Source: a virus
Length of the DNA: 64,000 nucleotides
Strand: one strand, 5' to 3'
IMG/VR virus record: IMGVR_UViG_3300024260_000002
Span: 62,001 to 126,000 of that record
The notes below the pieces were generated by a model. That model was given only the letters and a program-made list of their open reading frames with translations. It was not told the DNA's origin and ran no database searches. The translations under genes were made by a program, and so were the position numbers. Below, in pieces: positions 33,711 to 57,434 of this stretch. The first letter of the stretch is position 1. Each line of letters begins with the position of its first letter.

Positions 33711-33716
33711 ATTAAA

Positions 33717-41516: not shown

Positions 41517-42543
41517 TACTTCTCCTTAAATCTAAAGTACTGCAGTGTATTCCACCACCAAAGATTTCACAGTTATCTAATTCAATAGGTACTACTGTAA
41601 ATCCATTTTGCTCAAGTACTTTTATAGTACCATAAGCTTCTTTATTAACTAGAACAGTATCATGACTAACACTTAGAACATTAATATCCATTCCTAAAGA
41701 GCTAGCGAGTTGTCCATCTAAATTGATTTTGTTTGATACATCTCTAACTTGATATTGTTCAGGTACTAATATTCGATAATTCTTTAACCATGGAATCTGT
41801 TTTAATAAAGCATCTTTGTACTTAGGATTCACAAGAAAAGTATTTGAATTTAACTGAACAATAGCTCCATCAATATGATTATCAACTACACTAATTTCAA
41901 AGAATTCTTTATTTGGAAAGAATTTCTTTATCCAAAGATAACCTAAGTAATGGTTATAACTTGATATGTTAACAACTATCTTATCATGAACTCTTAAGAA
42001 TTGGGCACCGTCAATAGCCATCGTATAACCGCTCATATCTCGCGTATAATCTCTTTTAAGATCCCAGGCATCCAAATCTATAGTATCCTCGGTTATTATT
42101 GTTTTAGGCGCTGTAATCCATTGAGTATCTTGTTTAGCAAATATATCATACAATGCTTGGTTCTCAAAATATCTACCAGTTACATATGTAGGAGTCTCAA
42201 TAATAATATCATCTATTACTATTGATAAATCTCTAACATTACTAGCACTTGATAATTCACTTTTAAATTGTGGTGTAACAACTTGTTGAACTTTGTCTAC
42301 AATAGTCGGACGATACACCTTAACTCCGAGTTTTTCTATAGTACTAGATAAATTATCTAAATCATAAATTCTCTTTTGTAATATATCTTTGTTAATGTGG
42401 TAGACGTCTTGTTCGTAAACTGAGTGATTTAAATTTGTTTTATAAAAATGTTTAAAAGTAAAATCTATACTTCTATCATTTAATTCAAGCTCTCTACCAA
42501 CAATAACCTCATGTAATTTTGAGTATCCATTATCTGATCCCAT
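41506..42543 (-). CDS. Amidinotransferase-type (guanidino-group modifying) enzyme
   Basis: 345 residues, AAAGGAATTAA start. Features of the glycine/inosamine-phosphate amidinotransferase family: KLHEVIVGRELE at the N-terminus, VVDNHIDGAIVQLNSNTFLV with the His-x-Asp pair, and the C-terminal EIFGGGIHCSTLDLRR with candidate nucleophile Cys334. Length matches the family. Such enzymes move an amidino group from arginine to an amine, or, in relatives, hydrolyse arginine. With a DegT-type aminotransferase two genes away, guanidylation of an amino sugar or amine is a reasonable hypothesis. The substrate is not visible. Confidence 0.83.
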   Translation of the reverse strand: MGSDNGYSKLHEVIVGRELELNDRSIDFTFKHFYKTNLNHSVYEQDVYHINKDILQKRIYDLDNLSSTIEKLGVKVYRPTIVDKVQQVVTPQFKSELSSASNVRDLSIVIDDIIIETPTYVTGRYFENQALYDIFAKQDTQWITAPKTIITEDTIDLDAWDLKRDYTRDMSGYTMAIDGAQFLRVHDKIVVNISSYNHYLGYLWIKKFFPNKEFFEISVVDNHIDGAIVQLNSNTFLVNPKYKDALLKQIPWLKNYRILVPEQYQVRDVSNKINLDGQLASSLGMDINVLSVSHDTVLVNKEAYGTIKVLEQNGFTVVPIELDNCEIFGGGIHCSTLDLRRSNGT

Positions 42544-42552
42544 TTAATTCCT

Positions 42553-43476
42553 TTATAATAATTCACAACCCTTAGATCGTAGAATATTTCTAATATTCTT
42601 TTCACAGAACTTACAGCAATCATATTCAAAATCTAATATCTTACCATAATCTTGATCCCATATATTAATACCAGATTCTTCTAGCCATATATAACAAGGG
42701 TAAATATTTCCGGATTGATCTATATGTATTGATCCATCTTCGAATGAAGTACAATGCATTGTTTTAGACTTGCGTTCTAATTTAGTCTTATTAATTAGTT
42801 GATTAGTATAATTAATTGCGGTCTGATAAAATTTAAGATCTTCGTTGTGAATAGGAAGTTTCTCTAGATTATAATCATCAACATATGTTGAATGATCTCT
42901 TGTGAAATAAGTTTTAGTGTAATTAACATTGTTAAATGTTTCGATCATCTCACGCATTTTTGTACTATTAAGATCTTCTTTATTATATGCAAATAATATA
43001 TGTTGAATATAATCATTCTTATTAATATTCTTGAATGCAGCTGCATTAGCTAAAAGATTATCTAATGAACAATTAACTCTATATGTTTCATGTAATTCTT
43101 GTGTGCTTCCACATACAGAAAAATATACAGAATCACCTTCTTTTAATAATTTACCTAACTTATACCACCATTCAGGATTATGAGTATCTCCATTAGTACA
43201 TATCTCTATGTCTAAATTTAAATTATGTAACTCTTTTATCAAATGAAATATTTCTTTATATAATGTTGGTTCACTTGTTGCACCAACCAAATTAATCTTA
43301 TTCAAATTAGGAAATAGTTTAATCTGTTCAATAATATCTTCTACTGATCTCTCATTATAAAATATCTTACCAGCTTCATTAAGTGTTTTATAATTTCTTG
43401 CACATAAAGGACAATTTAGATTACATGTTCCGGTTAGATCAAATTCAATCATATTTACTTTACTTCTATCTAACAT
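42553..43476 (-). CDS. Radical SAM protein, CPLC family (1 of 3)
   Basis: 307 residues. Iron-sulfur motif CNLNCPLC (Cys18, 22, 25) follows EFDLTGT; NLVGATSEPTLYKEI replaces the usual GGEP region; CTNGDTHNPEWWYKLGKLLK and SVCGSTQELHETYRV are shared with the two genes upstream in transcription. The C-terminal part has IHIDQSGNIYPCYIWL and CCKFCEKN, a SPASM- or Twitch-like cluster-binding end. It would use SAM-derived radicals; the substrate is unknown. The ATG overlaps the previous gene by 7 bases. Confidence 0.85.
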   Translation of the reverse strand: MLDRSKVNMIEFDLTGTCNLNCPLCARNYKTLNEAGKIFYNERSVEDIIEQIKLFPNLNKINLVGATSEPTLYKEIFHLIKELHNLNLDIEICTNGDTHNPEWWYKLGKLLKEGDSVYFSVCGSTQELHETYRVNCSLDNLLANAAAFKNINKNDYIQHILFAYNKEDLNSTKMREMIETFNNVNYTKTYFTRDHSTYVDDYNLEKLPIHNEDLKFYQTAINYTNQLINKTKLERKSKTMHCTSFEDGSIHIDQSGNIYPCYIWLEESGINIWDQDYGKILDFEYDCCKFCEKNIRNILRSKGCELL

Positions 43477-44423
43477 ACGAAATCCAATCCACTAATCTCA
43501 ATCATCTTTTTAGTCTTAGCTTCACATAAGAAACAATCAGGATATGTAAATTCAAAGATTTTAGTATAATCAAATATATAATCTTTATGTAATTTAGTTG
43601 GATCATCACAAAGGAAATCATCTTTTGATTCAGGAAATTCCATACTAATATAACAGTAATGCATTTGACCAAATTGATTAATATGCATCTTTTTTGTATT
43701 GAATGCTTTACATTCAATTGTTGCAGCATCACCAACTTTCTTACGACGATTGAATAATGTATTAATTGCATTCTCTCTAGTAATTAAAGGACTTATCTCT
43801 TTGGATACTTCCTTAACATGTTCAGTTAAACGTCTTCGTCCTTCTGTTCCAACAATATAACTATGAGAAAAACCTTTTACAATATCATTCATTGCTTCAC
43901 TTTTTAAATCTTCTGTGTTGTATTTGAATTCAATTATTTGAAGGATATCTCTATTAGAATGTAATTTAAATGCTTTGGCATTATTTAGAATTTTACTAAG
44001 ATCACTACCTACTCTATATTCAGCATTAACTTCTTGTGAACTTCCACATAATGTAAATGTACAAGAGCTTCTTTCATGTCCTTGTTTAAAAAGCTTTCCA
44101 AGAGATTCCCAATATTCAGTACTTTGTAATGAACCATTAGAAAACATATCAATATGTATATTTCTAGAATTAAAGTACTCAATAAGTTCTGGCAATTCTG
44201 GATATAATAATGGTTCACTAATAGCTCCAGCTAACATAATTCTAGTTAAATTTGGAAAGAAATCTAATTGTTTGATAATATCTTTTACTGGTCTAACATT
44301 CTTCTTTAATAAGTGTTGAGCATGAGAATAATTTCTTGTACATAAAGGACATTGTAAATTACATGTACCTGTTAAGTCTATCTCAAACTCTTTTATATCA
44401 CTTGTTGTTAATGTTTTTAACAT
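43470..44423 (-). CDS. Radical SAM protein, CPLC family (2 of 3)
   Basis: 317 residues, AAAAGGAAGATAGTT start. CNLQCPLC (Cys21, 25, 28) after FEIDLTGT, ITRIML-type strand, MLAGAISEPLLYPEL, FSNGSLQSTEYWESLGKLFK and TLCGSSQEVNAEYRVG, paralogous to the flanking genes. A C-terminal cysteine-containing part (MHINQFGQMHYCYI; DCFLCEAKTKK) again looks like an auxiliary cluster domain. It is the longest of the three. Co-transcribed with its paralogues. Confidence 0.85.
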   Translation of the reverse strand: MLKTLTTSDIKEFEIDLTGTCNLQCPLCTRNYSHAQHLLKKNVRPVKDIIKQLDFFPNLTRIMLAGAISEPLLYPELPELIEYFNSRNIHIDMFSNGSLQSTEYWESLGKLFKQGHERSSCTFTLCGSSQEVNAEYRVGSDLSKILNNAKAFKLHSNRDILQIIEFKYNTEDLKSEAMNDIVKGFSHSYIVGTEGRRRLTEHVKEVSKEISPLITRENAINTLFNRRKKVGDAATIECKAFNTKKMHINQFGQMHYCYISMEFPESKDDFLCDDPTKLHKDYIFDYTKIFEFTYPDCFLCEAKTKKMIEISGLDFVC

Positions 44424-44425
44424 AA

Positions 44426-45262
44426 CTATCTTCCTTTTAAATGTAATGCTAATTCAGATGTATCTGATTCAGCTTCTGCTAACCTATATATTTTATTATC
44501 ACTTAATATCTTTGAATTATTCTTACTACATTCCCAGCAATGTTTATCACCAAAATTCTTAAAAAGACTACAAGGATTTAACTTATTATCAGAACTTAGT
44601 AATGCGAAATTATATTCCTCCGCAGGACACTCTTTGGTGATATCTTCTCTATTCAAAGTACTATATGCTTCTGATACTAACTTGGGTAAATGTATTTCAC
44701 TATCTAATTCAAAATGTTCACTGACTGGTAAAGTATGAAAATACTCAGCCTTGTATTTATTAAATCTACTTCTATCATCATCTTTGTTATAATTAAATAC
44801 AATATAGTTTAATATGCCTTTTTTAGAATACAGGTTAATGATATCTAATCGTCTAAGAACTGTATTTAGATTACTACCTACTCTATATTTTTCATGAAGT
44901 TCTTGAGTACTTCCACATACAGTTAAATATATATGACCGTTAATGCCTTTAAATAACATACCAAGTTTACGATAATACATATCATCATGAGTGTCACCAT
45001 TAATAAATAATGATACTTCTATATCGCGCATTTTTAAGTATCTTAAAAGTGGCACAAGTTTCTTATATAGAGTCGGTTCTGATGTGGGACCAGCCAGAGT
45101 AACATACTTAAGATCTTTTAAGTTTTCTAATCGTTCAATTAAAACATTATAATCTAATGTTTTATTATCCGTTAATTCAGGATGAGTTTGTCTTATACAT
45201 AATGGACATTGTAAATTACATATATTATTTAACTCTATTTCTATTCTTGTTATTTCTCTCAA
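44426..45262 (-). CDS. Radical SAM protein, CPLC family (3 of 3)
   Basis: 278 residues from a TTG start with AAAGGAAATCTT upstream. ICNLQCPLC (Cys15, 19, 22), YVTLAGPTSEPTLYKKLVPL, FINGDTHDDMYYRKLGMLFK and TVCGSTQELHEKYRVG. C-terminal cysteines occur in LNPCSLFKNFGDKHCWECSK, a likely auxiliary Fe-S or zinc site. It is the first of the CPLC trio in transcription order, 10 bases after the four-gene DTHNQ array. Likely the same general substrate class as its two paralogues. Confidence 0.85.
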   Translation of the reverse strand: MREITRIEIELNNICNLQCPLCIRQTHPELTDNKTLDYNVLIERLENLKDLKYVTLAGPTSEPTLYKKLVPLLRYLKMRDIEVSLFINGDTHDDMYYRKLGMLFKGINGHIYLTVCGSTQELHEKYRVGSNLNTVLRRLDIINLYSKKGILNYIVFNYNKDDDRSRFNKYKAEYFHTLPVSEHFELDSEIHLPKLVSEAYSTLNREDITKECPAEEYNFALLSSDNKLNPCSLFKNFGDKHCWECSKNNSKILSDNKIYRLAEAESDTSELALHLKGR

Positions 45263-45272
45263 AAGATTTCCT

Positions 45273-45899
45273 TTAAATGTAAACTATATTATCAAAATCT
45301 TTTTCAGTTATCCATCTCAATTGACTTTCGATTGTTGCATAAGTTCTATAATTTTTTAAAAGTAGTTTGTGATTAGCTTTGCTTAATTGAGGAGTATAAT
45401 CTTCTAATGATAATGAACCAGGAACTATATGAAATAATCTATTATTGTTATCAAGAAATGATTCTAAATTATGAAAGTTATTATCTGTTACAACAATCAT
45501 ATATTGAACATTCCCTGGTAAATCTTTTATTATCTCAGTATCTAAATTTTCAGAAGCATGGTATAAAATACTATTGAACTTATCAATTAAACTTGGATAC
45601 TTCTCTAAGAATAATCCATTAGTATTTAATGATAAATTATAGTCTTCAAATTCCTCAAGTAAATATAATATTTTTTCTAAGCTTAATGTTCCAACTTCGC
45701 CACCAGATAAAGTAATATTATAATCATTGTATTTCTCATGAACTAATTTAACTTTATTTTGTAATTCAATAGAACTTATAGCTGGTTGATTATGAGTATC
45801 AACACAACAATATTCACAATTCCAATTACATTTATAAGTAACTATAATTTCAAGTTCTTTCTCATTAGCTTTCATAAAATCTAAATTCATTCCTTCCAT
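45273..45899 (-). CDS. Radical SAM protein, DTHNQ array member (1)
   Basis: 208 residues. YKCNWNCEYCCVDTHNQ gives Cys24, 28 and 31; ITLSGGEVGT is the SAM-binding loop in place of GGEP; LNTNGLFLEKYPSLI and ILYHASEN follow. No C-terminal cysteine cluster, so it is a compact rSAM core without SPASM. The start has AAAGGACAAATA and overlaps the next gene by one base. It shares all marker strings with the three genes upstream in transcription. Function unknown. Confidence 0.83.
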   Translation of the reverse strand: MEGMNLDFMKANEKELEIIVTYKCNWNCEYCCVDTHNQPAISSIELQNKVKLVHEKYNDYNITLSGGEVGTLSLEKILYLLEEFEDYNLSLNTNGLFLEKYPSLIDKFNSILYHASENLDTEIIKDLPGNVQYMIVVTDNNFHNLESFLDNNNRLFHIVPGSLSLEDYTPQLSKANHKLLLKNYRTYATIESQLRWITEKDFDNIVYI

Positions 45900-46591
45900 T
45901 ATTTGTCCTTTGTTCTAAGTGAAACACAGTTTTCAAAATCATCTGATTCAAGAAACAATAAAGGTGCATGTGGTAAGAATAACCTATCTTTATATTTTTG
46001 ATATATTTTAAAACCTAATTTTCTATCAAGACCAGATTGATATACCTCTTTAACATAACCAGCATTAGCACCAATAACAGCAAATTGAAATTGAGGATAC
46101 TTATTTAAATACCATTCAATATCTTCAAATGAATCTTTATTTGTTACCACTAGTTGATAAATAAAATTATCATTTACAGGAATATGATCAAAGTGATATA
46201 ATTTAATTTCTTTTCTTGATCTAACATCTTGTACTGTATGATAGAGAACATCGCTTATGTATTTAACAACTAAGTCAGGATACTTCTCTAAAAATAGCCC
46301 ATTTGTATCAACTGTGATTACACAGTTCTTTTCTTTTAGGATTTCACAATACTTAATAATAAGATCTTTGGATACCATTCCTGGTTCACCACCAGCAAAC
46401 GAAACAATAGTATTATTTGGTACTTTAGCTAATTGATTCATAACAGAAGCATCATCTATCTGTTCATCTTGATTATGTGTGTCTGCACAACAGTACCAAC
46501 AATCCCAATTACATTTAAAAGTTAAATCAACATTGTAATGTATACTTGTTATCTGTTCAAAGTCTATCTTCTCTTCTTGCGTTTCTTGCAT
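45899..46591 (-). CDS. Radical SAM protein, DTHNQ array member (2)
   Basis: 230 residues, AAAGGAAATTAAA start. FKCNWDCWYCCADTHNQ (Cys27, 31, 34), TIVSFAGGEPGMVSKDLIIK (SAM-binding GGEP), VDTNGLFLEKYPDLVVKYIS and VLYHTVQDV. The last 70 residues have no cysteine motif beyond a lone Cys near the C-terminus. The protein keeps the whole catalytic front half and is about 100 residues shorter than typical SPASM enzymes. Confidence 0.84.
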   Translation of the reverse strand: MQETQEEKIDFEQITSIHYNVDLTFKCNWDCWYCCADTHNQDEQIDDASVMNQLAKVPNNTIVSFAGGEPGMVSKDLIIKYCEILKEKNCVITVDTNGLFLEKYPDLVVKYISDVLYHTVQDVRSRKEIKLYHFDHIPVNDNFIYQLVVTNKDSFEDIEWYLNKYPQFQFAVIGANAGYVKEVYQSGLDRKLGFKIYQKYKDRLFLPHAPLLFLESDDFENCVSLRTKDK

Positions 46592-46592
46592 T

Positions 46593-47156
46593 TTAATTTC
46601 CTTTTAATAAATGACTTATACTATCCCCGTGTACTTTATAGTTCTTGATTATATATAATGCATTCTTATTTGATAAACTATTTCCATTGACCTCTTTCAT
46701 ACTTGAAACAAAAAATTGAATATTATAGTTATCATAATACCAATCAAGCGCAAGAAAATTTGAATCATTAACCAACAACATATATGTAATTGGAACACTG
46801 ATATCAAATAATTGTATTTCTTTTAACTCTTCTATATGCTCTATACAATGATATAAAATATCATCAACATATTCTTCTACTATCTTTGGATACTTCTCTA
46901 AGAATAAACCATTTGTGTTTAGAACAATCTCACAGTTCTTTTCTTTAAGTAATTTAAAGTACTCAAGAATATCTTCTTCATTAACAGTACCAGGTTCACC
47001 ACCTTCAATATGGACTGAACACCCTTCTGGAATATTCTCAATACATTTAAGTACTTTCTTTTTAGTAGCTTTTGAACTACTTTGATTATGTGTATCAACT
47101 ATACAATAATTACAATGCCAATTACAAACATAAGTTATAGGTAAGAAACAATTCAT
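46593..47156 (-). CDS. Radical SAM protein, DTHNQ array member (3)
   Basis: 187 residues, the shortest of the array. VCNWHCNYCIVDTHNQ (Cys11, 15, 18), SVHIEGGEPGTVNEEDI, LNTNGLFLEKYPKIVEEYVD and ILYHCIEH. ATG overlaps the previous stop in an ATGA arrangement, so translation is coupled. Only the core beta/alpha units are present. Substrate unknown. Confidence 0.83.
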   Translation of the reverse strand: MNCFLPITYVCNWHCNYCIVDTHNQSSSKATKKKVLKCIENIPEGCSVHIEGGEPGTVNEEDILEYFKLLKEKNCEIVLNTNGLFLEKYPKIVEEYVDDILYHCIEHIEELKEIQLFDISVPITYMLLVNDSNFLALDWYYDNYNIQFFVSSMKEVNGNSLSNKNALYIIKNYKVHGDSISHLLKGN

Positions 47157-47773
47157 CTAAACCCCATTACTTTTACATTTTGATCAACTGATGTATTTTC
47201 ACCAAGTAGTTGCAAGATAGACTCTTTTGGAATTATATCTTTAATTTCATTATAGAGTTTAAATGCATTCTTAATACTTAGACTTGTTAAGTTTTGATTT
47301 TCATTCTTTCTTGCTCTATGAACATGAATAGGTAAATCAACATTGAGTAAGAAATCTCTAACAAGATGAAAATTAGTATCATCTGCTATGATAACATAAT
47401 CCATAGGTACATTGATAATAGGCATATATACATCGTAATTAGTTAAATCATCTTGTACATGATAAAAGAAGTATTCAATATATTTAACTAACTCAGGATA
47501 TCTTCTAAAGAAGAGTCCATTAGTATCCATGTGAATATTACAGTTCTTTTCTAATAATCTTTGTATTATTTCAACTAAAAATTCTTTCTTAGCCATTCCT
47601 GGTTCACCACCAGCAAGAGAAACTAAACTTCCATTTTTTAATGAATCAATACTATCAAATATATCTTGAGGTTTAGGTTCATCTTGATTATGTGTATCAA
47701 CTATACAATATGAACAATCCCAATCACACTTAAAAGTAATTAGTAAACAGTATTTTACTTTAACTTCTTCCAT
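47153..47773 (-). CDS. Radical SAM protein, DTHNQ array member (4)
   Basis: 206 residues, AAAGGAAATAAT start. FKCDWDCSYCIVDTHNQ (Cys16, 20, 23), LVSLAGGEPGMAKKEFLVEI, MDTNGLFFRRYPELVKYIEY and FFYHVQDDL. First of the array in transcription order and overlaps the glycosyltransferase-like gene by 19 bases. The late-conserved DTHNQ string, identical in all four, is unusual next to the iron-sulfur cysteines and may define the family. Confidence 0.84.
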   Translation of the reverse strand: MEEVKVKYCLLITFKCDWDCSYCIVDTHNQDEPKPQDIFDSIDSLKNGSLVSLAGGEPGMAKKEFLVEIIQRLLEKNCNIHMDTNGLFFRRYPELVKYIEYFFYHVQDDLTNYDVYMPIINVPMDYVIIADDTNFHLVRDFLLNVDLPIHVHRARKNENQNLTSLSIKNAFKLYNEIKDIIPKESILQLLGENTSVDQNVKVMGFR

Positions 47774-48657
47774 ATTATTTCCTTTAAAATGTTGATTATA
47801 TTATCATCTTTAGTAAGTTCTACCTGATTGAGATTCTTTAGATCTTCTATGCGATATTTCAAACCAAGATCAGTATCCAAATAATCAATATTTAGATACT
47901 CAACATCAATACCGAAGTATTGACATTCTGCTATCATTCGTGGAGAACAATCCCATTTTCTCGAAATAGGAGTATAAATATATTTAGATATATTTATAAA
48001 TTCTTCATAAGGTGTTCTTTCAATTTGACATATGTTAGATAATGAATCATAATAATCATTGTCTGTCAGTAATAAATAATTACCCGGATTACTTAAAATA
48101 TAATCCTTAACTACATCAAGTTCTAAAATTCGACAATTACCAGTTAGATACATTAATATTTTATCCGTTCTAATTGGTGATTTCAATTTACTAAATAAGA
48201 TCTTTTTCTTATAATCAATACCATTTACCTTTACTTGTTCATAGACTCTTTGGTCTTGTAACACATGAAGCTTAGGGTTGACATTATTTTTTATTTCTTT
48301 GTTTCCACATGCGAATGTAAAAACATTATCTGATAGATATGTTACTAAATTCATAGTATTTATATCTCCATCCATAAAGAATATATTCTTACATTTAATC
48401 AATGTAGGATGATAATTATTAAATGTAGTAACGCTTAATAACTTTTCAACTTCTTGTTGAGTGAATGTGTACTTCTTTATAACAGTACGAAAATCTTCTT
48501 CTGATAGACCTATAAATAGTACTCGGGTATCAAAAACATCTTTTAGAATATAATAGTAATCTATCAATTCAAAGATATGGCCACATATATTGTGACCATT
48601 ATTATTCCAGGTATAAGTTAATATTAACTCACCTTCTAGCATTAATATCTTTTTCAT
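47755..48657 (-). CDS. GT-B-like glycosyltransferase (probable)
   Basis: 300 residues. N-terminus MLEGELILTYTWNNNGHNIC with GHIFELIDYYYILKDVFDTR resembles the first domain of GT-B enzymes; the C-terminal domain has YTPISRKWDCSPRMIAECQY and FGIDVEYLN, where R-x-x-E-type donor-binding segments lie. No DxD motif. Ribosome binding site is weak, so it probably depends on upstream translation. It directly precedes the rSAM array, overlapping its first gene. Assignment is by pattern only. Confidence 0.6.
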   Translation of the reverse strand: MKKILMLEGELILTYTWNNNGHNICGHIFELIDYYYILKDVFDTRVLFIGLSEEDFRTVIKKYTFTQQEVEKLLSVTTFNNYHPTLIKCKNIFFMDGDINTMNLVTYLSDNVFTFACGNKEIKNNVNPKLHVLQDQRVYEQVKVNGIDYKKKILFSKLKSPIRTDKILMYLTGNCRILELDVVKDYILSNPGNYLLLTDNDYYDSLSNICQIERTPYEEFINISKYIYTPISRKWDCSPRMIAECQYFGIDVEYLNIDYLDTDLGLKYRIEDLKNLNQVELTKDDNIINILKEIIWKKLK

Positions 48658-48660
48658 TTT

Positions 48661-49485
48661 TTAATCTTTTAATATTGTTTGTACCATTAAATCATTTTTG
48701 TCTAATGTGTATTTTTGTAATTGACCATCTTTGATATCTTTTTGGCGTAGTGTAGTGCTATCTTCAATGGTAGTTCTTTCTTCAATTATAATTGGAATAT
48801 TGTACCATGCTGCTTCTACTATAATACGATTATTTGTATCTAAACCGATATGAACATAAACAATTTGGTCTATTATATTAAATAGATTTTTAATTATTTT
48901 GATATCACTCTTCATTAGAATATTCTTTAAATTGTATTTCTCAGCAATTACAGCAATTTCACAACTATCACTCTTTCCCTTATTTACATAACTTAAGAAT
49001 GTTGTTTCCGTTTTACAATTTTCAATTTGTTTAAAAATACTAAAGTTCAACTTCAAAGTGCTCTTAATATCAAATTTTTGATAATCATAATAACCAAAAT
49101 ATGTGGTACCATTCGGGCTTCTATAATTATCATGAGTTTCATTACTATAAACAAAATGTTCACCTCGAACAAAACCTCTTAATCGTTTATAAGATGATAC
49201 ATCAACGAATAAAGCTTTTCTAACATTATAAGTATACATCTGTACAGTAGTACAGAATTGTATATCAATTTCTTCAATATCGTATTTATCTTTAATAGCA
49301 TTAAGTGAAAGAATTTCATCCTCTTTTAATTTACGCTTAGCAACAATATATAAAGTACATAATGAATGTTGTTGTAGTAAATAAAAATATTCAAATGCAT
49401 AATAAAAAGAACCGTTTATTTTGTTATGATCATTTATATAATATACAACCGCATTATGAGATTGTATATGATTAGGATTTATCAT
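48661..49485 (-). CDS. GT-B/GT4-like glycosyltransferase (probable)
   Basis: 274 residues, AGGAAGTAGG start. FYYAFEYFYLLQQHSLCTLY, then SYKRLRGFVRGEHFVYSNET, and the C-terminal YVHIGLDTNNRIIVEAAWYN followed by IPIIIEE, which resembles the GT4 'E..A.....P(V/I)I' donor-binding segment. Slightly short for the family. It pairs with the GT-like gene at 47755. Could be a non-catalytic relative. Confidence 0.62.
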   Translation of the reverse strand: MINPNHIQSHNAVVYYINDHNKINGSFYYAFEYFYLLQQHSLCTLYIVAKRKLKEDEILSLNAIKDKYDIEEIDIQFCTTVQMYTYNVRKALFVDVSSYKRLRGFVRGEHFVYSNETHDNYRSPNGTTYFGYYDYQKFDIKSTLKLNFSIFKQIENCKTETTFLSYVNKGKSDSCEIAVIAEKYNLKNILMKSDIKIIKNLFNIIDQIVYVHIGLDTNNRIIVEAAWYNIPIIIEERTTIEDSTTLRQKDIKDGQLQKYTLDKNDLMVQTILKD

Positions 49486-49493
49486 CCTACTTC

Positions 49494-50099
49494 CTATGAA
49501 ATGTCGTTTAGATATTTCGACATGAATGTAGCATATAGTTCATCAACTTTTGATTCATCAGTTGCTAATCTAATCTCTGAAAAATATTCAGTGTATTTCT
49601 CTTCTAAATAAGAACTTCTAGCAATTTCATCTCTAGCATTTAAATACATCTCAAGTTTATCAATTAAAGCATCATCACCTGTTTCAAGTATTTTGAGATA
49701 TGTTTCTTCTTTATTATCATCATGAATAAAGTATCCATTATCACAAAGAATATTATTGATATTAATATATTGATACATCATTAGTCCAGAAACGTTTGCT
49801 TGCTGGTGTGTAACCAATTGGCGTACTTTTTTAAGATATATACTTTTGTATAATTCTAACTCATTATTTACATCAACAATGATAAGATCATGTACTTGTA
49901 TATCAATATTTTTATAATCTTTTATAATTCTAACTATTTTATTATTTGATATATGTTTCTTTATTTCACTTGCAGCAAAGGTGCTTAAACCTAAGAAACC
50001 TGTGTGGCTCTCAAACTCTTTATTGTGTGATGCAGTTAAATATTCTATTTCAAAATATGTACCACAATCAATGACTGCTGCCATTTCAAATACTTTCAT
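49494..50099 (-). CDS. Unknown island protein (201 aa)
   Basis: 201 residues, with two AAAAAGGAAT stretches upstream. Middle: KVRQLVTHQQANVSGLMMYQ and YININNILCDNGYFIHDDNK; the last 60 residues are strongly helical and acidic (DALIDKLEMYLNARDEIARS). I have an impression that similar proteins occur in large T4-like marine phages, but I cannot name one. It lies between an rSAM gene and the GT-like gene. No enzymatic motif. Confidence 0.65.
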   Translation of the reverse strand: MKVFEMAAVIDCGTYFEIEYLTASHNKEFESHTGFLGLSTFAASEIKKHISNNKIVRIIKDYKNIDIQVHDLIIVDVNNELELYKSIYLKKVRQLVTHQQANVSGLMMYQYININNILCDNGYFIHDDNKEETYLKILETGDDALIDKLEMYLNARDEIARSSYLEEKYTEYFSEIRLATDESKVDELYATFMSKYLNDIS

Positions 50100-50121
50100 T
50101 TATATTCCTTTTTATTCCTTT

Positions 50122-51048
50122 TTATTTTTCGTAACCATCGCATCGAAGAATGAATTCACAATCTTTACATGAACGAGGTTTATCGTAAGAAGCTATCCTA
50201 TTAGTTATAGCTGTTTCTAACATTGACTCTACTGTTATATCCTGAACTGTGGTTAAATCAAATGTTTGAATATTCCAATCAGTTAGATCATATATATGAT
50301 CTAACGTACTAACGCAGTATTTTTCATATCCTTTCATAAAGCAGAAAGGAATATATCTAACAGTCACAGGAACGATATCTTTATCGATAAAGATCATTAT
50401 CTTAGGAGATACTTTCTGGTAATCTAAATAATCTAATTTATGTGATGATTCCCATCTATTTAAAGGTAAGAAGTTTAACTGTTGAATTTTAACACCACAT
50501 CTTATTAGATATTTTATAATTCTAGCATAATTACGACCATCAAAATCATTTTGAACAGTGCAATTAATTCGAATATCCATATCTAACTCTTGAGCATTCT
50601 TAATTGCTTGAATTATCTTTCTAAACGCTTTATGATCAACTTTCTCATTATGCGATTTAGTATTCCAACCGTGTAAACTGAATAATATTTCAGATAAGCC
50701 ATGATCTTTAGCTTCTTTTAGTTTATCAATATCACTGAAACTAATACCATTTGTAAGCATAGCTATTTTATCAAAGTTTTTACACATATCTAAGATTGTT
50801 AAGAACTCAGGATGTATAGAACTTTCACCACCTGATAAATCAATACTTGTCATACCAGAAGCTTTCAATAAATTAATTTCATTCTCAATGATACTAAGTT
50901 TTCTAAAAGGATCTTTTAAATTACCTTGATAGTAACAGAATTCACAATTTAAATTACAAGTAGTTCCAGTATTTAATCTACCTCTTAAACATATCGGTTT
51001 ATCTGGTAGATCATTAATTTTGGGCTTTATTATTTTATTTAAATTCAT
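50122..51048 (-). CDS. Radical SAM protein next to the Cys-repeat fibre
   Basis: 308 residues. TTCNLNCEFCYYQGN (Cys31, 35, 38), SIDLSGGESSIHPEF (SAM-binding loop), CTVQNDFDGRNY and a C-terminal RSCKDCEFILRCDGYEK, a short SPASM-like cysteine group. The start overlaps the end of the fibre gene by four bases (ATGA). Ribosome binding site is modest. The overlap makes this rSAM protein and the fibre a translational pair. Confidence 0.84.
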   Translation of the reverse strand: MNLNKIIKPKINDLPDKPICLRGRLNTGTTCNLNCEFCYYQGNLKDPFRKLSIIENEINLLKASGMTSIDLSGGESSIHPEFLTILDMCKNFDKIAMLTNGISFSDIDKLKEAKDHGLSEILFSLHGWNTKSHNEKVDHKAFRKIIQAIKNAQELDMDIRINCTVQNDFDGRNYARIIKYLIRCGVKIQQLNFLPLNRWESSHKLDYLDYQKVSPKIMIFIDKDIVPVTVRYIPFCFMKGYEKYCVSTLDHIYDLTDWNIQTFDLTTVQDITVESMLETAITNRIASYDKPRSCKDCEFILRCDGYEK

Positions 51049-51872
51049 ATTATTCTGCTGAATATATCTCTATAAAGAGCATCATAATCGACTTGAAAAT
51101 ACTCTTCTGTATTTATAACATAAATTGATAAACCATCTCTGATTAAATCTTGAGCCATTACACCAAATTGTTTTTCTTTTGGTAAATCAAGTCCTAGTTC
51201 AGTACCATCAACATAATAAAATGAATAGAATTTAATAGGAGTTTTACTCTTAATTTTATTCGATGCTACTGTTCCAATATGATTTATTTCAATCTTTAAT
51301 CGTCTATCGCTATAGTTACAACCACAATCTGTATTACATGTACATACATTATTACAAGCACAATCTGAATTACATAAACAGTTATCCGCAATACTAATAT
51401 AATTGTTTATAATATTATTATAAAAAGCTGCTTCTATTTCTGCTGGACGAGATATTGAAGCTATACCAAAAGTACTAAATGAATTAATAACAGATACCAT
51501 TTGATCCCATTCGTATTTATAAGCAACATTTCCTTTAATAGCATTTAAAGTAATTTTAGGAATATACCATGATTGATTACTTGCTTGCTTGTATCTAGGA
51601 TCAGGATTACTTACTCCCCTAGACCAATTATTAGCAATACTATTTAATGAGTGTTTTAAACTTGTAGTGTCTTCTGTACAAACTGTATCAGTAATTCCTA
51701 CAAAATTTAAAGAGGGGAAAGCTGCTCCTTGATTAGGTGCATGGTGAGCCGCACAATCAATTCTTCTATCTTGTATAGCAGTAGCGCCTCCATATACTAC
51801 TTGACCTTCTATTGTAGCTGGATTAGCTACAAGGGTTGGAGTCGTTTCATCTGTTATATTATTAACTGCCAT
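51045..51872 (-). CDS. Tail fibre with four CxCN-type repeats and an S74 self-cleaving C-terminus
   Basis: 275 residues, AAAGGAATAAAA start. The first 160 residues are a beta-rich fibre head. Residues 165-185 hold eight cysteines at 165, 167, 171, 173, 177, 179, 183 and 185: hexapeptides with CxC spaced by NSD, NNV and NTD. It continues straight into SDRRLKIEINHIG (188-200), the S74 intramolecular-chaperone entry with candidate cleavage Ser188, then FGVMAQDLIRDG and FQVDYDALYRDI. S74 domains trimerise and cut themselves off fibre proteins. The cysteine run lies just before the predicted cut and so stays on the mature fibre. It lies between two rSAM genes. Confidence 0.85.
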   Translation of the reverse strand: MAVNNITDETTPTLVANPATIEGQVVYGGATAIQDRRIDCAAHHAPNQGAAFPSLNFVGITDTVCTEDTTSLKHSLNSIANNWSRGVSNPDPRYKQASNQSWYIPKITLNAIKGNVAYKYEWDQMVSVINSFSTFGIASISRPAEIEAAFYNNIINNYISIADNCLCNSDCACNNVCTCNTDCGCNYSDRRLKIEINHIGTVASNKIKSKTPIKFYSFYYVDGTELGLDLPKEKQFGVMAQDLIRDGLSIYVINTEEYFQVDYDALYRDIFSRII

Positions 51873-51883
51873 TTTTATTCCTT

Positions 51884-51908
51884 TAATTCCTAATTTTCTT
51901 AGGAATTA
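51884..51908 (-). promoter_or_regulatory. Hairpin between rSAM-SPASM gene and fibre gene
   Basis: TAATTCCTAA/TTAGGAATTA with a five-base loop overlaps the stop codon of the SPASM gene and lies 12 bases before the fibre ATG. It can serve as an attenuator or translation-control stem for the fibre; the fibre AAAGGA site follows it directly. Confidence 0.45.
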
Positions 51909-53009
51909 AATTCCTAAGTGTTTTTGCACGGTTCTATCTATTTTTCCGAATGCTTTATATATTCCACATAAGTCATCTTTTGGATCATGATACTTTTCTT
52001 CATATGTTTCTTTTGTTGATGTATCATGATTTACAATTGGACATTGATAACATACAGTTGCTGTACAACCTTTACAATGTTCAGGAACAAGCATAATTTC
52101 TTTATGTCTTTCATGTGAAGTCATAACAGCTTCAACCGGATTATCAATATGCCCAATTATAAAATCTTCTTTATTTTCAGAATATAACGCTCCATGACAA
52201 ACTAAAAGATTACCATCAATATCAACATTAGCTATATTCGTACCAGCAGAACAAACATTGCGTTCACCTGTTCCAAACCATGACCAAACGAATCTACCAT
52301 TAGCTTTATAATATTCTATTTCTAGCTTAGCAATCTTTAAAAATTGTTCATTAACTATCTTTAAGAACGGTTCATCTATTACATATTTGTTAGTGTACTC
52401 TAATGTAGGAGAATAGTTAAAAGTGGGATATTTTTCAATTAGTTCTTTAAAATGTAACCAATTCTCTAATAGATTAGGCATTTCATGAATTGCTAATGTA
52501 CTCTTTATACTGAGTTTAATATCTGGAAATTTATCCATTAAGTAATGAACTGAGCTTAGGACTGTACTTGATGTACCTTCACCTTTATGATCAACTCTTT
52601 CTAAATCATTATTAAGACCGTCATAACTTATTTGATAACTAAATCTTGAAGTGTCATCTATAAATAATTTAAAGTTATTAATAATTTTCTCAATATTTTT
52701 AACATTAAAACCATTAGTATACATGAAGAAATCAACAGGAGAATCTTTAAATTCATTAATCAATCTAATAATCATTTTAGAATTTAGAGTAGGTTCACCA
52801 CCCCAAAAATTAATAGTTACGCCGTTGAACACTTCTAGGAATTTCTCACCATTAAGCATCTCATGAACTGATTTAATAATATCATCTGTATGTAACTGAG
52901 GATTCTTATTTTGAAGCTCTTCCCCTTCGAAACAATAGGTACAAGCCATATCACACTTTTGTGTAGTTGTTACTTCATATGCGAAATATCTTTTTTGTCT
53001 TTGATTCAT
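51906..53009 (-). CDS. Radical SAM/SPASM maturase-like protein
   Basis: 367 residues. TQKCDMACTYCFEG (Cys19, 23, 26), VTINFWGGEPTLNSKMIIRL, and a full SPASM end: RNVCSAGTNIANVDIDGNLL followed by CHGALY, then CKGCTATVCYQCPIVNHDT. This is the anaerobic sulfatase-maturase/peptide-modifying architecture, where auxiliary clusters position a peptide. It is the most peptide-maturase-like of the ten. It is flanked by an 82-residue gene upstream (ATGA overlap) and the cysteine-repeat fibre downstream. Confidence 0.88.
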   Translation of the reverse strand: MNQRQKRYFAYEVTTTQKCDMACTYCFEGEELQNKNPQLHTDDIIKSVHEMLNGEKFLEVFNGVTINFWGGEPTLNSKMIIRLINEFKDSPVDFFMYTNGFNVKNIEKIINNFKLFIDDTSRFSYQISYDGLNNDLERVDHKGEGTSSTVLSSVHYLMDKFPDIKLSIKSTLAIHEMPNLLENWLHFKELIEKYPTFNYSPTLEYTNKYVIDEPFLKIVNEQFLKIAKLEIEYYKANGRFVWSWFGTGERNVCSAGTNIANVDIDGNLLVCHGALYSENKEDFIIGHIDNPVEAVMTSHERHKEIMLVPEHCKGCTATVCYQCPIVNHDTSTKETYEEKYHDPKDDLCGIYKAFGKIDRTVQKHLGI

Positions 53010-53254
53010 GATTTCTCAATTTGACCAAGAATATCATCATAGTCATCGGCACTTAATTTAGAAGCATCTAATTTAGAATTTTCTTCCATTGCAGTTAAAG
53101 TAACTTTTGCCATATTAAATATAGTAGCAGCTGCGTCATTAAAACCAGCATCGTCTAATATATTACCAGCTTGAACTAAATGCCAAATTGAAGCCTTTAA
53201 TTGTACTTCTAAAGGCTCATCTTTTAATGGAGTCTCTTTATTTTCTTCATTCAT
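53006..53254 (-). CDS. Small helical protein (82 aa) beside the SPASM gene
   Basis: 82 residues, AAGGATATAAAA start. Acidic leader (MNEENKETPLKDEPLEVQLK), helix KASIWHLVQAGNILDDAGFN and acidic tail. No cysteine or core-peptide repeat. The ATGA overlap with the SPASM gene couples them, a layout known for RiPP precursor/maturase pairs. It could be a precursor, an adaptor or an unrelated small protein. Confidence 0.62.
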   Translation of the reverse strand: MNEENKETPLKDEPLEVQLKASIWHLVQAGNILDDAGFNDAAATIFNMAKVTLTAMEENSKLDASKLSADDYDDILGQIEKS

Positions 53255-53264
53255 TTTTATATCC

Positions 53265-53780
53265 TTAAATTTGTATTTTATATTGTTCTGATAATGTTTC
53301 TAACACATCTAACTTTTGTAAATTATATATTGGAACGTTGTAAGTATCAGCTACACCAATAGCTAAACCCGTTCCACCTGTATCTTTACCGACTTCTTCT
53401 TTATTTGTAGCACCATCTATAGTCCAACATATTAAGAAATCACTTGGACGATCTAAACCTATTCCTAGAACTTGATGAACATTTCTAGCCATGAGTCTTT
53501 TAACTGGTGTTTTTAAATATTTCCAACTCCGATGATGTTCAGATGCTATATCAAATGCTTGAGGCCAAATATTAAATAAACTTGATGTGTTATTATTAAA
53601 ACCTTTCCATGGCAGAAATATATCTTTCTTATCAATATCTTTTTCAAATGCTAAATCTGCTCCATCTGCTCCACCAGATCTTAGAATATATGTATCTTTA
53701 AATACTTGTGAGAAGCTTGACATAAATTCTAAAATTGCTGTTGGAGTCTTTCTTGCGCCTATCCCTGTATAGTAATTCAT
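53265..53780 (-). CDS. SLOG-type (LOG/DprA-like) nucleotide-binding protein
   Basis: 171 residues. YTGIGARKTPTAILEFMSSF followed by LRSGGADGADLAFEKDID is the classic SLOG opening (GSRxxP...SGGAxGAD). Later KDTGGTGLAIGVADTYNVPI fits the second glycine-rich loop. Such domains bind nucleotides or nucleotide-derived ligands. They occur widely in phages. The ATG overlaps the previous gene by four bases. Confidence 0.72.
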   Translation of the reverse strand: MNYYTGIGARKTPTAILEFMSSFSQVFKDTYILRSGGADGADLAFEKDIDKKDIFLPWKGFNNNTSSLFNIWPQAFDIASEHHRSWKYLKTPVKRLMARNVHQVLGIGLDRPSDFLICWTIDGATNKEEVGKDTGGTGLAIGVADTYNVPIYNLQKLDVLETLSEQYKIQI

Positions 53781-54325
53781 GACTTATATTCTAACGGCAT
53801 TGTAGCTATGCTAATAATATGATCAATTGTTCCATCATCAACATCAACAACAATATATGGAATTGAATTTTTCATTAATAAATGAGCAATTGTATCATCT
53901 AAAAGTTTAGCACCTTCCAAATCTTGTTCTCTACCATACTCTTCGTATAGAGCTTCTTTATTTCTTCTAAGAAGAATATTAACATTATTATATCTATTAA
54001 ATTGTTCTTTTAGATAAGCATTAAATTCAGCAATTGGTATCTTAGTTTCACAACAATATGACATTCCCATTATGAATGGACTATCATGTACAGCATAATC
54101 AACTTTATTAAGAAGTCTATACATTCTATGATGCTGTTCACCTGCTACCAATAGTTGGTCAGAAAGTCTAAACCAATCTTCTGAATATACTAATTCTTTA
54201 GCAAACTCTTGAGTCATATCAACTTTCTTTCCTAGCATTTTTAATCTATCAAATACAGCAGCAGCTGTTCTACTTTTACCAACTCCTGGGCCTCCGAATA
54301 GGTTTATATTTATTGCACTTTTCAC
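53777..54325 (-). CDS. P-loop NTPase/kinase-like protein (182 aa)
   Basis: 182 residues from a GTG start that overlaps the previous stop (ATGTGA). Walker A GGPGVGKS at residues 11-18; a kinase-like YAVHDSPFIMGMSY follows and REQDLEGAKLLDDTIAHLLM later. The length and layout (P-loop at residue 11, D-x-x near 95) resemble small nucleoside or ATP/GTP-binding phage kinases. Likely cytoplasmic. Substrate unknown. Confidence 0.72.
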   Translation of the reverse strand: MKSAININLFGGPGVGKSRTAAAVFDRLKMLGKKVDMTQEFAKELVYSEDWFRLSDQLLVAGEQHHRMYRLLNKVDYAVHDSPFIMGMSYCCETKIPIAEFNAYLKEQFNRYNNVNILLRRNKEALYEEYGREQDLEGAKLLDDTIAHLLMKNSIPYIVVDVDDGTIDHIISIATMPLEYKS

Positions 54326-55302
54326 ATATTTTCCTTTTCAAATAAAATTAACAGAGTATGTCGTGTTCTAGATATTAATTCTGTAATCTCTTTATTAATG
54401 TACTTGTAGATCTCACATAACTCAGCGATAGGAGCTTTGTTTTTAATTTGCTCATAAGTACACCCACGATGACAAAATTGACTTATGTCGCATTTATCAC
54501 ACACATCAGTTACTATATATTTATTAGTTAATAATGTTGTAGAGTCTCTCTCGAAACGCTCGCATGCAACTATTTTCTTCTGAGGAGTAATTGCCCAGTA
54601 GCTTGTTCCTACTCCACAATCTTCTTGTTCATGACCTTTCATAAAGAATTCTAGAACAGGATTGAGATATGTTTTAATTAATCCTGGTATCTCATTGTAA
54701 GTCTTATATTGTTTAAAGTCACCAAGATAATTAATGTATTTAGTAAACTCTTTATTAAATGTTTGAACTTGTTCATCATTCCATGAACCAATGTCTCTAA
54801 CAAGAGTCATATCAGGAACTAATCCTACATCTATAAGAGCTTCGTGTTGTTTAATAAGAATATTATCTTGCATATCAATTCCATTAATCATACAATGACC
54901 ATGAGTTGCACCTGCTTCAATTAATGATCGAATATAGATTCGATGATTCCCTCGATGAGCTTCTTGAAAAATACCATCATATGATATAGTGGTTCTAATA
55001 TTAGGATGCTCCACAATTTTTTTAACTGTTTTATTATATATTGTCCCATTTGTAGTTATTACAATTTGAATCAAATTTGGATGAGATTCTAATTTATTTA
55101 TTATATATTCTACAATATCTAATTGTAGAAAAACTTCCCCACCGAATATACTAAACACAAAAGGCTCAGTTAAATTCAACATAAATTCATCAAAGTACGC
55201 TTCGTCTAATCTAAGTTTATTATTGACGTCAACATTACAATATGTACAATTCATATTACATAACTCTGATACCACATAATGCCAATGTTTTACATCTTTC
55301 AT
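54322..55302 (-). CDS. Radical SAM protein with SPASM-like tail (first island gene)
   Basis: 326 residues, AAAGGCTAGTA start. SELCNMNCTYCNVD (Cys15, 19, 22), FVFSIFGGEVFLQLDIVEYI, TTNGTIYN, TISYDGIFQEAHRGNHRIYI, and a cysteine-rich end VCDKCDISQFCHRGCTYEQI with a further Cys in ELCEIYK. It resembles SPASM maturases, though GGE is followed by V and not P. First in the island transcript, just after the border repeat and an ATAGAAAT motif 19 bases upstream of the ATG. Confidence 0.85.
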   Translation of the reverse strand: MKDVKHWHYVVSELCNMNCTYCNVDVNNKLRLDEAYFDEFMLNLTEPFVFSIFGGEVFLQLDIVEYIINKLESHPNLIQIVITTNGTIYNKTVKKIVEHPNIRTTISYDGIFQEAHRGNHRIYIRSLIEAGATHGHCMINGIDMQDNILIKQHEALIDVGLVPDMTLVRDIGSWNDEQVQTFNKEFTKYINYLGDFKQYKTYNEIPGLIKTYLNPVLEFFMKGHEQEDCGVGTSYWAITPQKKIVACERFERDSTTLLTNKYIVTDVCDKCDISQFCHRGCTYEQIKNKAPIAELCEIYKYINKEITELISRTRHTLLILFEKENM

Positions 55303-55535: not shown

Positions 55536-57434
55536 TTAAACCTTAACCTCTACATAACCACCTTTCGAAGGAGTAATAGCTATACCAATTAATGGTTCAC
55601 TACTATAATATGAATCTTTAGATTGTGATCTAGTCACACCTATAACTTTTCCGAACTCTTTTGGATCTGGGAAAATATACATACCTCTAACTATATCATG
55701 ATTTGTCTTAACTGGGATCCGTCCTTTTAAGGCAACAAAAATATAATCTTTTGTTCTAACTGAAGCATTAAGTTCAAGCCCTGGTGAAGTAGAAACAACA
55801 CCCGCTAATGGTAATTCAGGATTATACAAAGTAACTTCTGTATCTATACCAATACTAAGAACCGTACCTGGCTCATATTGTAAATCACTTTCGTATTTTT
55901 CAGCTAAATCTGCATACTCTGCAGATGTCGCAACACCTTCAAATTTACCACCATCTGTTTTAAAATCAAATGCTGTAACTCTGCCTGAGAAAGTACCATT
56001 TGCACCATTCTTAAGAGAATATGTATTATTTAAATCTAAATCACCACCTAATAATAATCCACCTGCTGCAGTAATTTTACCAGTACTTGTAAAAGTACCA
56101 GCATTTTCAAAATTACCATGTACATACATATTTCTCAAAACATCTAAATCTCTTCCAAGATAAGTATCTTTACCAGTTATTTGATGAATCTCATCGTTGA
56201 ATGTTGCTTCGCCTGTTAAAGTCATATCACCTGCATTCGTAACAATAAATTTTACATCACCAAGCTTCTCAATAAAAATTGAATTTTCAGTTTGAATGTC
56301 ACCAACTACTGTTAAGTATCCACCTACTGTTAAGTATCCACCTACTGTTAAATAATTACCAACTGTAAAGTATTCACTGATAGTACCAAAACCATCAAGT
56401 ATATTAAGATTACCTAATCCAGTAATTTCGATATCTCCAGCTGCTGTAGCGATACCAGTAGTAACATCTAATCGGCCATCACCAGTACTAATATCACCTG
56501 TACCTGTACTAATATTACCAGCTCCTGTATTAACAAAACCATTATTAGTTGAAGTAACACCATCTCTAATAAAACTTAAACCTCTAGTAATATCTAAATT
56601 ACCATTTGAAGCAACTATATTACCAATGTCAGTTCTGATTTCACCATCAACTGTTGTAATATGACCTTGTCCACCAACATTAACAAAACCACCACCAGCA
56701 TTACTTCTAAAACCAGTATTAACATGACAATATCCAAGTGAACTTAGAATATTACCGTTTGTTGTTAATGAATTATCTGATGAATTGGTTGAATTAATAG
56801 TAACTTTTCCAGTAGTATCAACTTTAAAAAATGTTTGAACTTCAAATGTTCCAGGTAGATAAACTATATTAAAACGACTAGCATCACCAATAGTTAAAAG
56901 GTGAGTATTTTCATTCATATTTAAAATAGTTTGATCTTTATACCACATTGATAAAGCATCAATATATAACCAATCTCTATTTACTTGAAGATTTTCTATA
57001 TCGTAACCTGTTAAAAGCCCTTCTACATAAGTAGGCGATTTAATAGGACCGGTAAAGTATTCTAATTTTTTTAGATGTAATATTTCAGCAGTATCTTCTA
57101 TGATGGCATCAGCTCTACGACTTTCTTTTCGAAGTTGACCTAAAGCAAAATAATTTTTAGATAATTCATCAACTGTTAAATCTTTAAGAGCACCAACATT
57201 TATTTCAAGTTGAAGCATATCAGCTCTAAGTAATTCATTTGAATTATGTGTAACTTCTAATAGTTTTGTAACTATTATTTTGTAATCATTTTCTAGCTTA
57301 TACGATAATTCGTCACTCTGCTCATAATAAGCAGCAACATCATTCGTAAGGCCTTGAATATTACTTTTTAATTTAGCCTCGTTAAATTTTAGGGCATTTA
57401 AAGTTGCTACTTCTTGCAGTATTGACTTTGACAT
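55536..57434 (-). CDS. Tail fibre protein with phage-type C-terminal chaperone-like domain
   Basis: 632 residues, AAAAAGGATGGATA start. N-terminal coiled-coil (residues 1-110), then a Gly/Thr/Asn-rich beta-solenoid shaft (NTGAGNISTGTGDISTGDGR), three near-identical TVGGYL units, and a C-terminal ATSAEYADLAEKYESDLQYE followed by PGTVLSIG, a common end of marine T4-like phage fibres. The last 100 residues form a beta domain (PLIGIAITPSKGGYVEVKV). It is directly outside the rSAM island border, next to the repeat. Receptor binding is probable. Confidence 0.75.
   Translation of the reverse strand: MSKSILQEVATLNALKFNEAKLKSNIQGLTNDVAAYYEQSDELSYKLENDYKIIVTKLLEVTHNSNELLRADMLQLEINVGALKDLTVDELSKNYFALGQLRKESRRADAIIEDTAEILHLKKLEYFTGPIKSPTYVEGLLTGYDIENLQVNRDWLYIDALSMWYKDQTILNMNENTHLLTIGDASRFNIVYLPGTFEVQTFFKVDTTGKVTINSTNSSDNSLTTNGNILSSLGYCHVNTGFRSNAGGGFVNVGGQGHITTVDGEIRTDIGNIVASNGNLDITRGLSFIRDGVTSTNNGFVNTGAGNISTGTGDISTGDGRLDVTTGIATAAGDIEITGLGNLNILDGFGTISEYFTVGNYLTVGGYLTVGGYLTVVGDIQTENSIFIEKLGDVKFIVTNAGDMTLTGEATFNDEIHQITGKDTYLGRDLDVLRNMYVHGNFENAGTFTSTGKITAAGGLLLGGDLDLNNTYSLKNGANGTFSGRVTAFDFKTDGGKFEGVATSAEYADLAEKYESDLQYEPGTVLSIGIDTEVTLYNPELPLAGVVSTSPGLELNASVRTKDYIFVALKGRIPVKTNHDIVRGMYIFPDPKEFGKVIGVTRSQSKDSYYSSEPLIGIAITPSKGGYVEVKV
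56307..56360. repeat. 18-bp tandem repeat in fibre gene (x3)
   Basis: Three units of TACTGTTAAGTATCCACC (last one diverged), coding for a repeated YLTVGG in the fibre shaft. In-frame copy changes would alter shaft length. Confidence 0.85.

Follow-up and report, generated by a model that had tools for sequence, protein, structure and literature searches.

Ten radical SAM genes and a cysteine-tipped tail fibre in a phage genome: a probable fibre-tip maturation system beside a putative sugar module

Introduction

What does a phage do with ten radical S-adenosylmethionine (rSAM) enzymes encoded together among its virion genes? The question is raised by the IMG/VR virus record IMGVR_UViG_3300024260_000002, of which positions 62,001 to 126,000 (64,000 nucleotides, hereafter the window) were analysed; the rSAM genes lie at positions 42553–55302 of the window. 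From sequence comparison and predicted folds, we propose that at least two of the ten enzymes probably introduce cross-links into a cysteine-packed tip of the tail fibre that the phage itself encodes. The original prediction, made from the letters alone, could not match the gene set to a known system and suggested a virion- or glycan-modifying pathway. The first statement does not hold. Timms et al. 2010 described 11 rSAM proteins in CP220 and 12 in CPt10, both cultured Firehammerviruses (PMC2853527), and more than 20 uncultivated viral records carry similar rSAM sets. An rSAM-rich cluster is not unique; the type is known but unexplained. The suggested pathway is still the best guess, to which we add particular links between two enzymes and the fibre tip.

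Results

All ten open reading frames (ORFs) were found at the coordinates predicted for them. These had been called starts; since the genes lie on the minus strand, they are the low-coordinate 3′ ends. Each protein keeps the CxxxCxxC motif and scores 30.9–64.0 bits against the Pfam model PF04055 (gathering cut-off 29.5), which rules out assignment to a non-rSAM family. A scan of the whole 181,622-base record gave exactly ten PF04055 matches, every one inside the cluster, so the clustering is not due to chance. The cluster genes, like the neighbours described below, are all co-oriented on the minus strand, and many overlap. As predicted, the cluster sits among virion genes, with tail and capsid genes and a tail fibre gene on its flanks; virion genes on both sides, together with homologous clusters in other phages, rule out a misassembled bacterial contig. 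Family clustering across loci defined four rSAM families, of which the window holds R1 ("CPLC", three genes), R2 (compact "DTHNQ", four genes), R3 (SPASM-like, two genes) and R0 (one gene). The three types named originally resolve into these four families. In AlphaFold2 (AF2) models, an R2 and an R3 protein each show a partial TIM barrel and match rSAM structures in the PDB. The R2 model (46593–47156) has a predicted local distance difference test score (pLDDT) of 93.1, and its best matches are anSMEcpe and EpeE.

The proposed substrate is a tail-fibre-type protein (51045–51872) with a cysteine-rich tip and a C-terminal S74 domain (PF13884, residues 188–244, 28.6 bits against a cut-off of 22; S-D-x-R-L-K site present). 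The R3a gene (51906–53009; PF04055 and NCBIfam matches) lies directly upstream of it. The tip, CLCNSDCACNNVCTCNTDCGCNYS, is encoded at 51309–51380 and corresponds to fibre residues 165–188; eight of its 24 residues are cysteines, vs 1% cysteine genome-wide. Its pattern is CxCNxDCxxxxVCxCxxxCxCNYS, and C.CN.DC....VC.C...C.CNY is invariant over 12 tips. Across these tips the median identity is 75%, vs 36% in the preceding 150 residues (26% for the window fibre). Both the tip and its position in the operon are conserved in relatives. The tip ends at the serine of SDRRLK, which, by analogy with endosialidase chaperones, we take to be the S74 self-cleavage point, and it would therefore form the mature C-terminus. 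In the tip proteins of loci L033, L071 and L087, a stop codon occupies the position of the cleavage site, and in L209 a Hint domain stands in place of S74. These three routes to the same C-terminus suggest that selection acts on the exposed tip. A tblastn search with the fibre against phages gave no match, probably owing to low-complexity masking.

The link between tips and R3 enzymes was approached from the tip side. Two DNA patterns, one for each of two tip types and neither drawing on rSAM genes, were run over the viral contigs. R3 genes were found upstream of 28 of the 29 CTCNCNY-type tip proteins with at least 1.8 kb of upstream sequence, and beside CNSDC-type S74 fibres wherever the relevant flank was available. 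As a control, S74 proteins were collected by cysteine-independent patterns, at least 2 kb of upstream sequence being required, and R3 genes were sought within 3 kb. They accompany all six cysteine-tipped S74 fibres vs two of 64 other S74 proteins (Fisher 2e-7, only indicative since the sequences are related and not independent). Both exceptions in the control (L141 and L209) have a different cysteine-rich ORF near R3, as does L226, further off. Scanning bacterial genomes with the CTCNCNY motif returned a single 3-kb contig of a metagenome-assembled genome (L246), which carries R3a and R3c.

Other cysteine-rich types occur. At L052, L060, L063, L068 and L084, R3-like genes lie downstream instead; in L052, L060, L068 and L084 the proteins end in NCNCNCDCNCNCNC-like runs, with the R3-like gene about 2 kb away, and represent a further cysteine-tip type. 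Tail-type proteins in L209 (10051–11043) and L226 (7557–7976) contain long NCNCGNINC-like cysteine-rich segments beside R3-like rSAM genes, the Hint domain of L209 following the cysteine part. A tail-type protein in L055 (7424–7969) has a segment of the same kind; an R3-like gene was not seen in this fragment.

The enzyme set co-varies with the tip type. A tree divides R3 into R3a, R3b and R3c. All 12 CNSDC-tip records with full flanks, the window included, have R3a and R3b and never R3c, while 15 CTCNCNY records have R3a, R3b and R3c; the one exception, L106, lacks R3c. The window R3b gene (54322–55302; PF04055 38.0 bits, profile hidden Markov model (HMM) class R3b; best NCBIfam match PapB at 65.4 bits, below cut-off) falls into a clade with CP220 gp023 (support 100/99). 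This match between tip type and enzyme set could reflect lineage; judged by gene order, CP220 breaks the synteny. There the R3a, R3b and R3c homologues are gp136, gp023 and gp099, which lie 29–81 kb apart on the circular map. Some 2 kb away from gp136, CP220 encodes gp140, a 534-amino-acid hypothetical protein with CTCDCNY heptads that carries CLCDCNYCTCDCNYCTCDCNYCTCNCNYCTCDCNYCTCDCNYCTC; it has no S74 domain and shows no recognisable relationship to the S74 fibre. The pairing of tip type and R3 set thus extends to CP220. We inspected gp140 because its gene is marked in the CP220 record as containing a 21-bp (seven-codon) repeat, which Timms et al. 2010 mention untranslated (PMC2853527). The phages IBB_35 and CP21 carry the same protein. 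Two further CP220 proteins, gp166 (L007, 8107–8532) and gp032 (L009, 24206–24577), contain CxxC repeats, and gp166 is encoded 0.8 kb from the R0-type rSAM gene gp163.

The closest families of R3 are peptide maturases. Its best NCBIfam matches are PapB, TIGR04115, QhpD (TIGR03906) and SCIFF, all below their equivalog cut-offs, and the SPASM model PF13186 scores R3 at 16.6 (cut-off 21.5). CteB (5WGG, E 8.6e-15) is the nearest structure to the AF2 model of R3a (pLDDT 85), followed by anSME. CteB and anSME both act on peptidyl cysteine. Additional cysteines of R3a (C253, C271, C312, C315, C320, C323 and C348) are invariant or nearly so. PapB joins cysteine to Asp or Glu and tolerates spacings of 0–6, and QhpD places several Cys–Asp/Glu thioethers in one full-size protein; the tips likewise keep Asp or Asn beside cysteine. 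The fold near CteB, the family matches and these neighbouring residues make thioether formation the leading, unproven, candidate for the R3 reaction in the tip.

The alternative that survives best, which we consider unlikely, accepts the tip as substrate and assigns R3 a different reaction: epimerisation, a C–C cyclophane, oxidation of cysteine to formylglycine (the anSME reaction), or the preparation of Cys or Asn for glycosylation by the products of the two glycosyltransferase-like genes GTa and u48661. In most loci these two genes come after the fibre gene, and the fold neighbours also include anSME and the epimerase EpeE. Against it, the top family and fold matches are thioether-forming enzymes, and Asp or Asn is conserved next to cysteine, as in the PapB and QhpD substrates where Asp or Glu accepts the link.

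In one respect the arrangement resembles ribosomally synthesised and post-translationally modified peptide (RiPP) systems, since a cysteine-rich candidate precursor, the tip protein, is encoded adjacent to the maturase. The short leader–core architecture was not found: the proposed substrates are structural-type proteins of 160–535 amino acids, and the release, if any, would be that of the S74 or Hint domain. Elsewhere, Cronobacter phage CR5 has a pair of rSAM genes with no cysteine-rich tip like those described here. A 69-amino-acid protein ending in CNGSCSWTSSGGAKAVTWPS (L247, 10012–10221; Cronobacter phage CR5_156) is encoded near two rSAM genes and virion genes and is possibly a separate phage rSAM substrate.

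Around this core, the relatives share a conserved gene order, obtained by family clustering: UDP-glucose dehydrogenase-like gene (UGD), R3b, a small helical protein, R3a, the cysteine-tip S74 fibre, u49494, u48661, GTa, R0, one or more R2, one or more R1, and the DegT, GT8-like (GT8) and amidinotransferase (AMT) genes. The window departs from it in having R0 beside the fibre and two extra genes between R3b and the small protein. The R0 gene (50122–51048; PF04055 64 bits, phrog_27238) is 42% identical to CP220 gp163, and its start codon overlaps the fibre stop. The small protein (53006–53254) has 82 amino acids, is helical and is a divergent counterpart of f17, the 79-amino-acid protein that separates R3b from R3a in relatives. 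Both occupy the same place upstream of R3a, and the match has a profile E of 2e-4 in a small set and an hhalign P of 8e-5; the 82-amino-acid protein may be a helper or chaperone. A candidate assembly factor is u49494 (49494–50099), a CP220 gp015 homologue conserved about 0.5 kb downstream of the cysteine-tip gene in relatives and found at 19 of 31 loci (10/15 and 26/29 tip loci). The adjoining u48661 (48661–49485; 18 loci) is a probable glycosyltransferase, judged by its C-terminal motif, and is related to GTa (47755–48657; 26 loci), likewise a probable glycosyltransferase. The profiles of both match one same protein in L120; GTa is a CP220 gp184 homologue and 33% identical to CP220 121565–122395. 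On the other side, the cluster adjoins a tail fibre gene (55536–57434; phrog_19602, tail fiber), a neighbour kept in relatives.

The remaining rSAM genes are associated with sugar enzymes. The R1 genes (42553–43476, 43470–44423 and 44426–45262; phrog_21308) encode CPLC-type proteins with C-terminal cysteines, whereas R2, identified by PF04055 and family clustering (45273–45899, 45899–46591, 47153–47773 and the modelled protein above), is a bare partial barrel with no extra conserved cysteine. Next to R1 lies the gene for an amidinotransferase of the AGAT/StrB family (41506–42543), a pentein homologue (PDB E ~1e-22; 2jdx 1.7e-22, 1bwd 2.9e-22). Its motif GGGIHCSTLD, in which GGG-H-C is invariant, is shared with CP220 and CPt10. 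Further along are a protein with no Pfam or PHROG match (40623–41516), a GT8-like nucleotide-diphospho-sugar transferase-like protein (39799–40623; phrog_23758, 34.6% identical to CP220 gp088), a compact DegT/DnrJ/EryC1-type sugar aminotransferase (39180–39797; PF01041 50.6 bits), an NAD-dependent epimerase for nucleotide sugars (36278–37303; 29% to CP220 gp158) and UGD (35503–36285; 27.5% to CP220 gp019), which heads the operon in relatives. The amidinotransferase, sugar-enzyme and cysteine-repeat fibre neighbours that had been read from the sequence are thus real. Most CNSDC operons contain R1, R2, AMT, DegT and GT8; R1 also accompanies CTCNCNY tips (CP220 and L106) and is missing from L045 and L048. 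Given this distribution of R1, the R1/R2/AMT/DegT/GT8 group does not follow the tip type. With low confidence, R1 and R2 together with the amidinotransferase, the aminotransferase and the glycosyltransferases may be regarded as a second, swappable glycan module.

Relatives were found by several searches. With R3a, R1 and R0 as queries, tblastn finds the Campylobacter Firehammerviruses, among them CP220. Of the 11 rSAM genes of CP220, gp080, gp081, gp083, gp084 and gp087 adjoin the genes for the amidinotransferase gp086 and for two sugar transferases. The window phage does not itself belong to the Firehammerviruses, as its terminase and sheath are 22–24% identical vs up to 41–43% for cluster genes; a genome-wide lineage search gave no near-DNA match to phages, and capsid tblastn no match. 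A single-sequence search of viral contigs with R3a found no relatives, whereas alignment-based searches of IMG/VR yielded 26 records with PF04055 counts of 1–13, and up to 16 in tip-bearing records. The 16 matches, the most seen, belong to a 207-kb virus record (G035, locus L103).

Several other genes deserve mention. At 38240–38956 the window encodes a probable anti-defence protein, which scores 91.8 bits (cut-off 27) against the Pfam model of the type I Thoeris inhibitor Tad6. The homing endonuclease gp054 of CP220 has three homologues in the window (19318–20832, 20967–22604 and 62321–63751; 40–48% identity), which points to repeated invasion by such genes. In record G000 (29904–35930; L002, 9904–15930), both ribonucleotide reductase subunits greatly exceed those of CP220 in length and match in two pieces, which suggests inteins or inserts. 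The L016 and L015 records (G004 and G003) have in-frame TAG codons in rSAM frames (three and one, respectively), a hint that TAG is read as an amino acid.

Discussion

Starting from the homology, gene linkage, enzyme–tip co-variation and predicted folds observed above, we infer two linked systems, fibre-tip maturation by R3 and a swappable sugar module, and give this reading a probability of roughly 0.6. R3a and R3b would act on the cysteine-rich tip of the S74 fibre, most likely by forming thioether cross-links that join cysteine sulphur to carbon in a neighbouring residue, for instance Asp or Asn. The S74 chaperone would then cleave itself off at SDRRLK, so that the rigid, modified tip would form the C-terminus of the fibre and face the host. 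R1, R2, the amidinotransferase, DegT, GT8, the epimerase and UGD, and GTa and u48661 would probably make and attach an amidinated (guanidino) amino sugar or a similar glycan, whose target may be the virion or the host surface. We extend this tentatively, at slightly below even odds, to a general viral strategy: dedicated sets of rSAM maturases would cross-link cysteine-rich C-terminal tips of tail proteins (CNSDC, CTCNCNY, NCNCNCDC or NCNCGN, exposed by S74, Hint or a stop codon) into hardened, RiPP-like receptor-binding tips, each two- or three-enzyme set being specific to a tip type, with a second, swappable glycan module beside it.

Several observations weigh against the two-system proposal. 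The R3 scores against PapB (NF047865), 78.6 and 65.4 in the window and up to 127 in relatives, are so far below the 340-bit cut-off that the exact reaction is not fixed. No RiPP recognition element or leader was recognised. The linkage comes largely from related operons, whose counts are not independent, and the L098 and L099 fragments (22.7 and 16.1 kb) have a CTCNCNY-like tip and no rSAM gene. The 11 bands listed for a CP220 gel do not include gp140. For the glycan module, the whole of the evidence is annotation by homology.

Finally, CxC-rich tips could simply bind metal. The tip would then be a metal-binding or disulfide knob, a metallothionein-like CxC array, and R3 would modify something else or help to load a metal or cluster. 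The CxC motifs and the conserved Asn, Asp and Tyr suit metal binding, and known phage needle tips bind iron. We consider this improbable, because it does not account for the strict association of the tips with rSAM types that modify peptides or for the correspondence of tip and enzyme types, and SPASM enzymes would have to play a novel part in loading metal.

Marginally less probable still is the published interpretation of CP220 and CPt10, in which Timms et al. 2010 found a module of five rSAM genes and an amidinotransferase to be interchangeable between near-identical phages and proposed a role in host metabolism (PMC2853527). The rSAM genes would on this account be auxiliary metabolic genes that boost host metabolism at low oxygen and are not specially tied to the virion. 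Enzymes acting on sugar nucleotides and amidino groups are indeed of metabolic types; left unexplained are the presence of R3 beside cysteine-rich tips in unrelated operons, the tracking of one tip type by R3c, and the CteB/anSME-like fold. Modification of phage DNA for restriction resistance, as suggested in the IBB_35 paper and in line with a QueD-like gene in the window's virus record, is very improbable and was rejected for the cluster genes, which lie among tail genes and glycosyltransferases and include R3 peptide-maturase families, the QueE-like rSAM of Firehammerviruses (gp017) being a separate gene.

The proposal of tip maturation and a sugar module bears on an old puzzle: the abundance of rSAM genes in Firehammerviruses has been unexplained since 2010, and the receptors of these phages are unknown. 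Tying particular rSAM genes to a cysteine-rich tip makes it directly testable by mass spectrometry on a growable phage. If the proposal is true, phages build their particles with the help of RiPP-type radical chemistry, each tip type having its own matched set of enzymes. This would mean new enzymology and a new layer of phage–host recognition, and it would offer a rich supply of enzymes that cross-link peptides. In the literature searched (preprints and most subscription papers lie outside it), no prior link of rSAM enzymes, phages and a cysteine-rich fibre was found and no protein tailoring of this kind is reported in viruses; relative to that literature, the link between rSAM enzymes and a fibre tip is new.

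Comparison with known systems

The nearest system is the Firehammervirus module (CP220 gp080–gp090, CPt10 gp086–gp092), which shares with the window clustered rSAM genes, an amidinotransferase, nucleotide-diphosphate-sugar transferases and a T4-like myovirus setting. Homology extends to the amidinotransferase (42.5%), the glycosyltransferase (34.6%) and R1 (30–41%); CP220 further encodes homologues of R0 and of R3, together with a CTCDCNY protein. The window differs in that ten rSAM genes and an S74 fibre with a CNSDC cysteine tip form one run, whereas R3 and R0 are scattered in CP220. The ranthipeptide pair PapB/PapA (freyrasin) and the SCIFF/CteB system likewise combine a SPASM rSAM enzyme with a neighbouring cysteine-rich ribosomal substrate in which Asp or Asn is near cysteine. 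In contrast to their short leader–core peptides, the substrate proposed here is a phage structural protein with an autoproteolytic domain; it would be served by two or three paralogous maturases, whose scores are far below the equivalog cut-off. QhpD, which matures quinohemoprotein amine dehydrogenase, is a SPASM rSAM enzyme acting on a full-size protein, as is proposed for R3. However, it serves a cellular enzyme rather than a virion, and R3 is only distantly similar to it in sequence. Endosialidase-type S74 fibres share the C-terminal PF13884 domain and the SDRRLK site. Ordinary S74 fibres have neither a cysteine-rich tip nor R3 neighbours, whereas the window fibre carries its tip immediately before the cleavage site.

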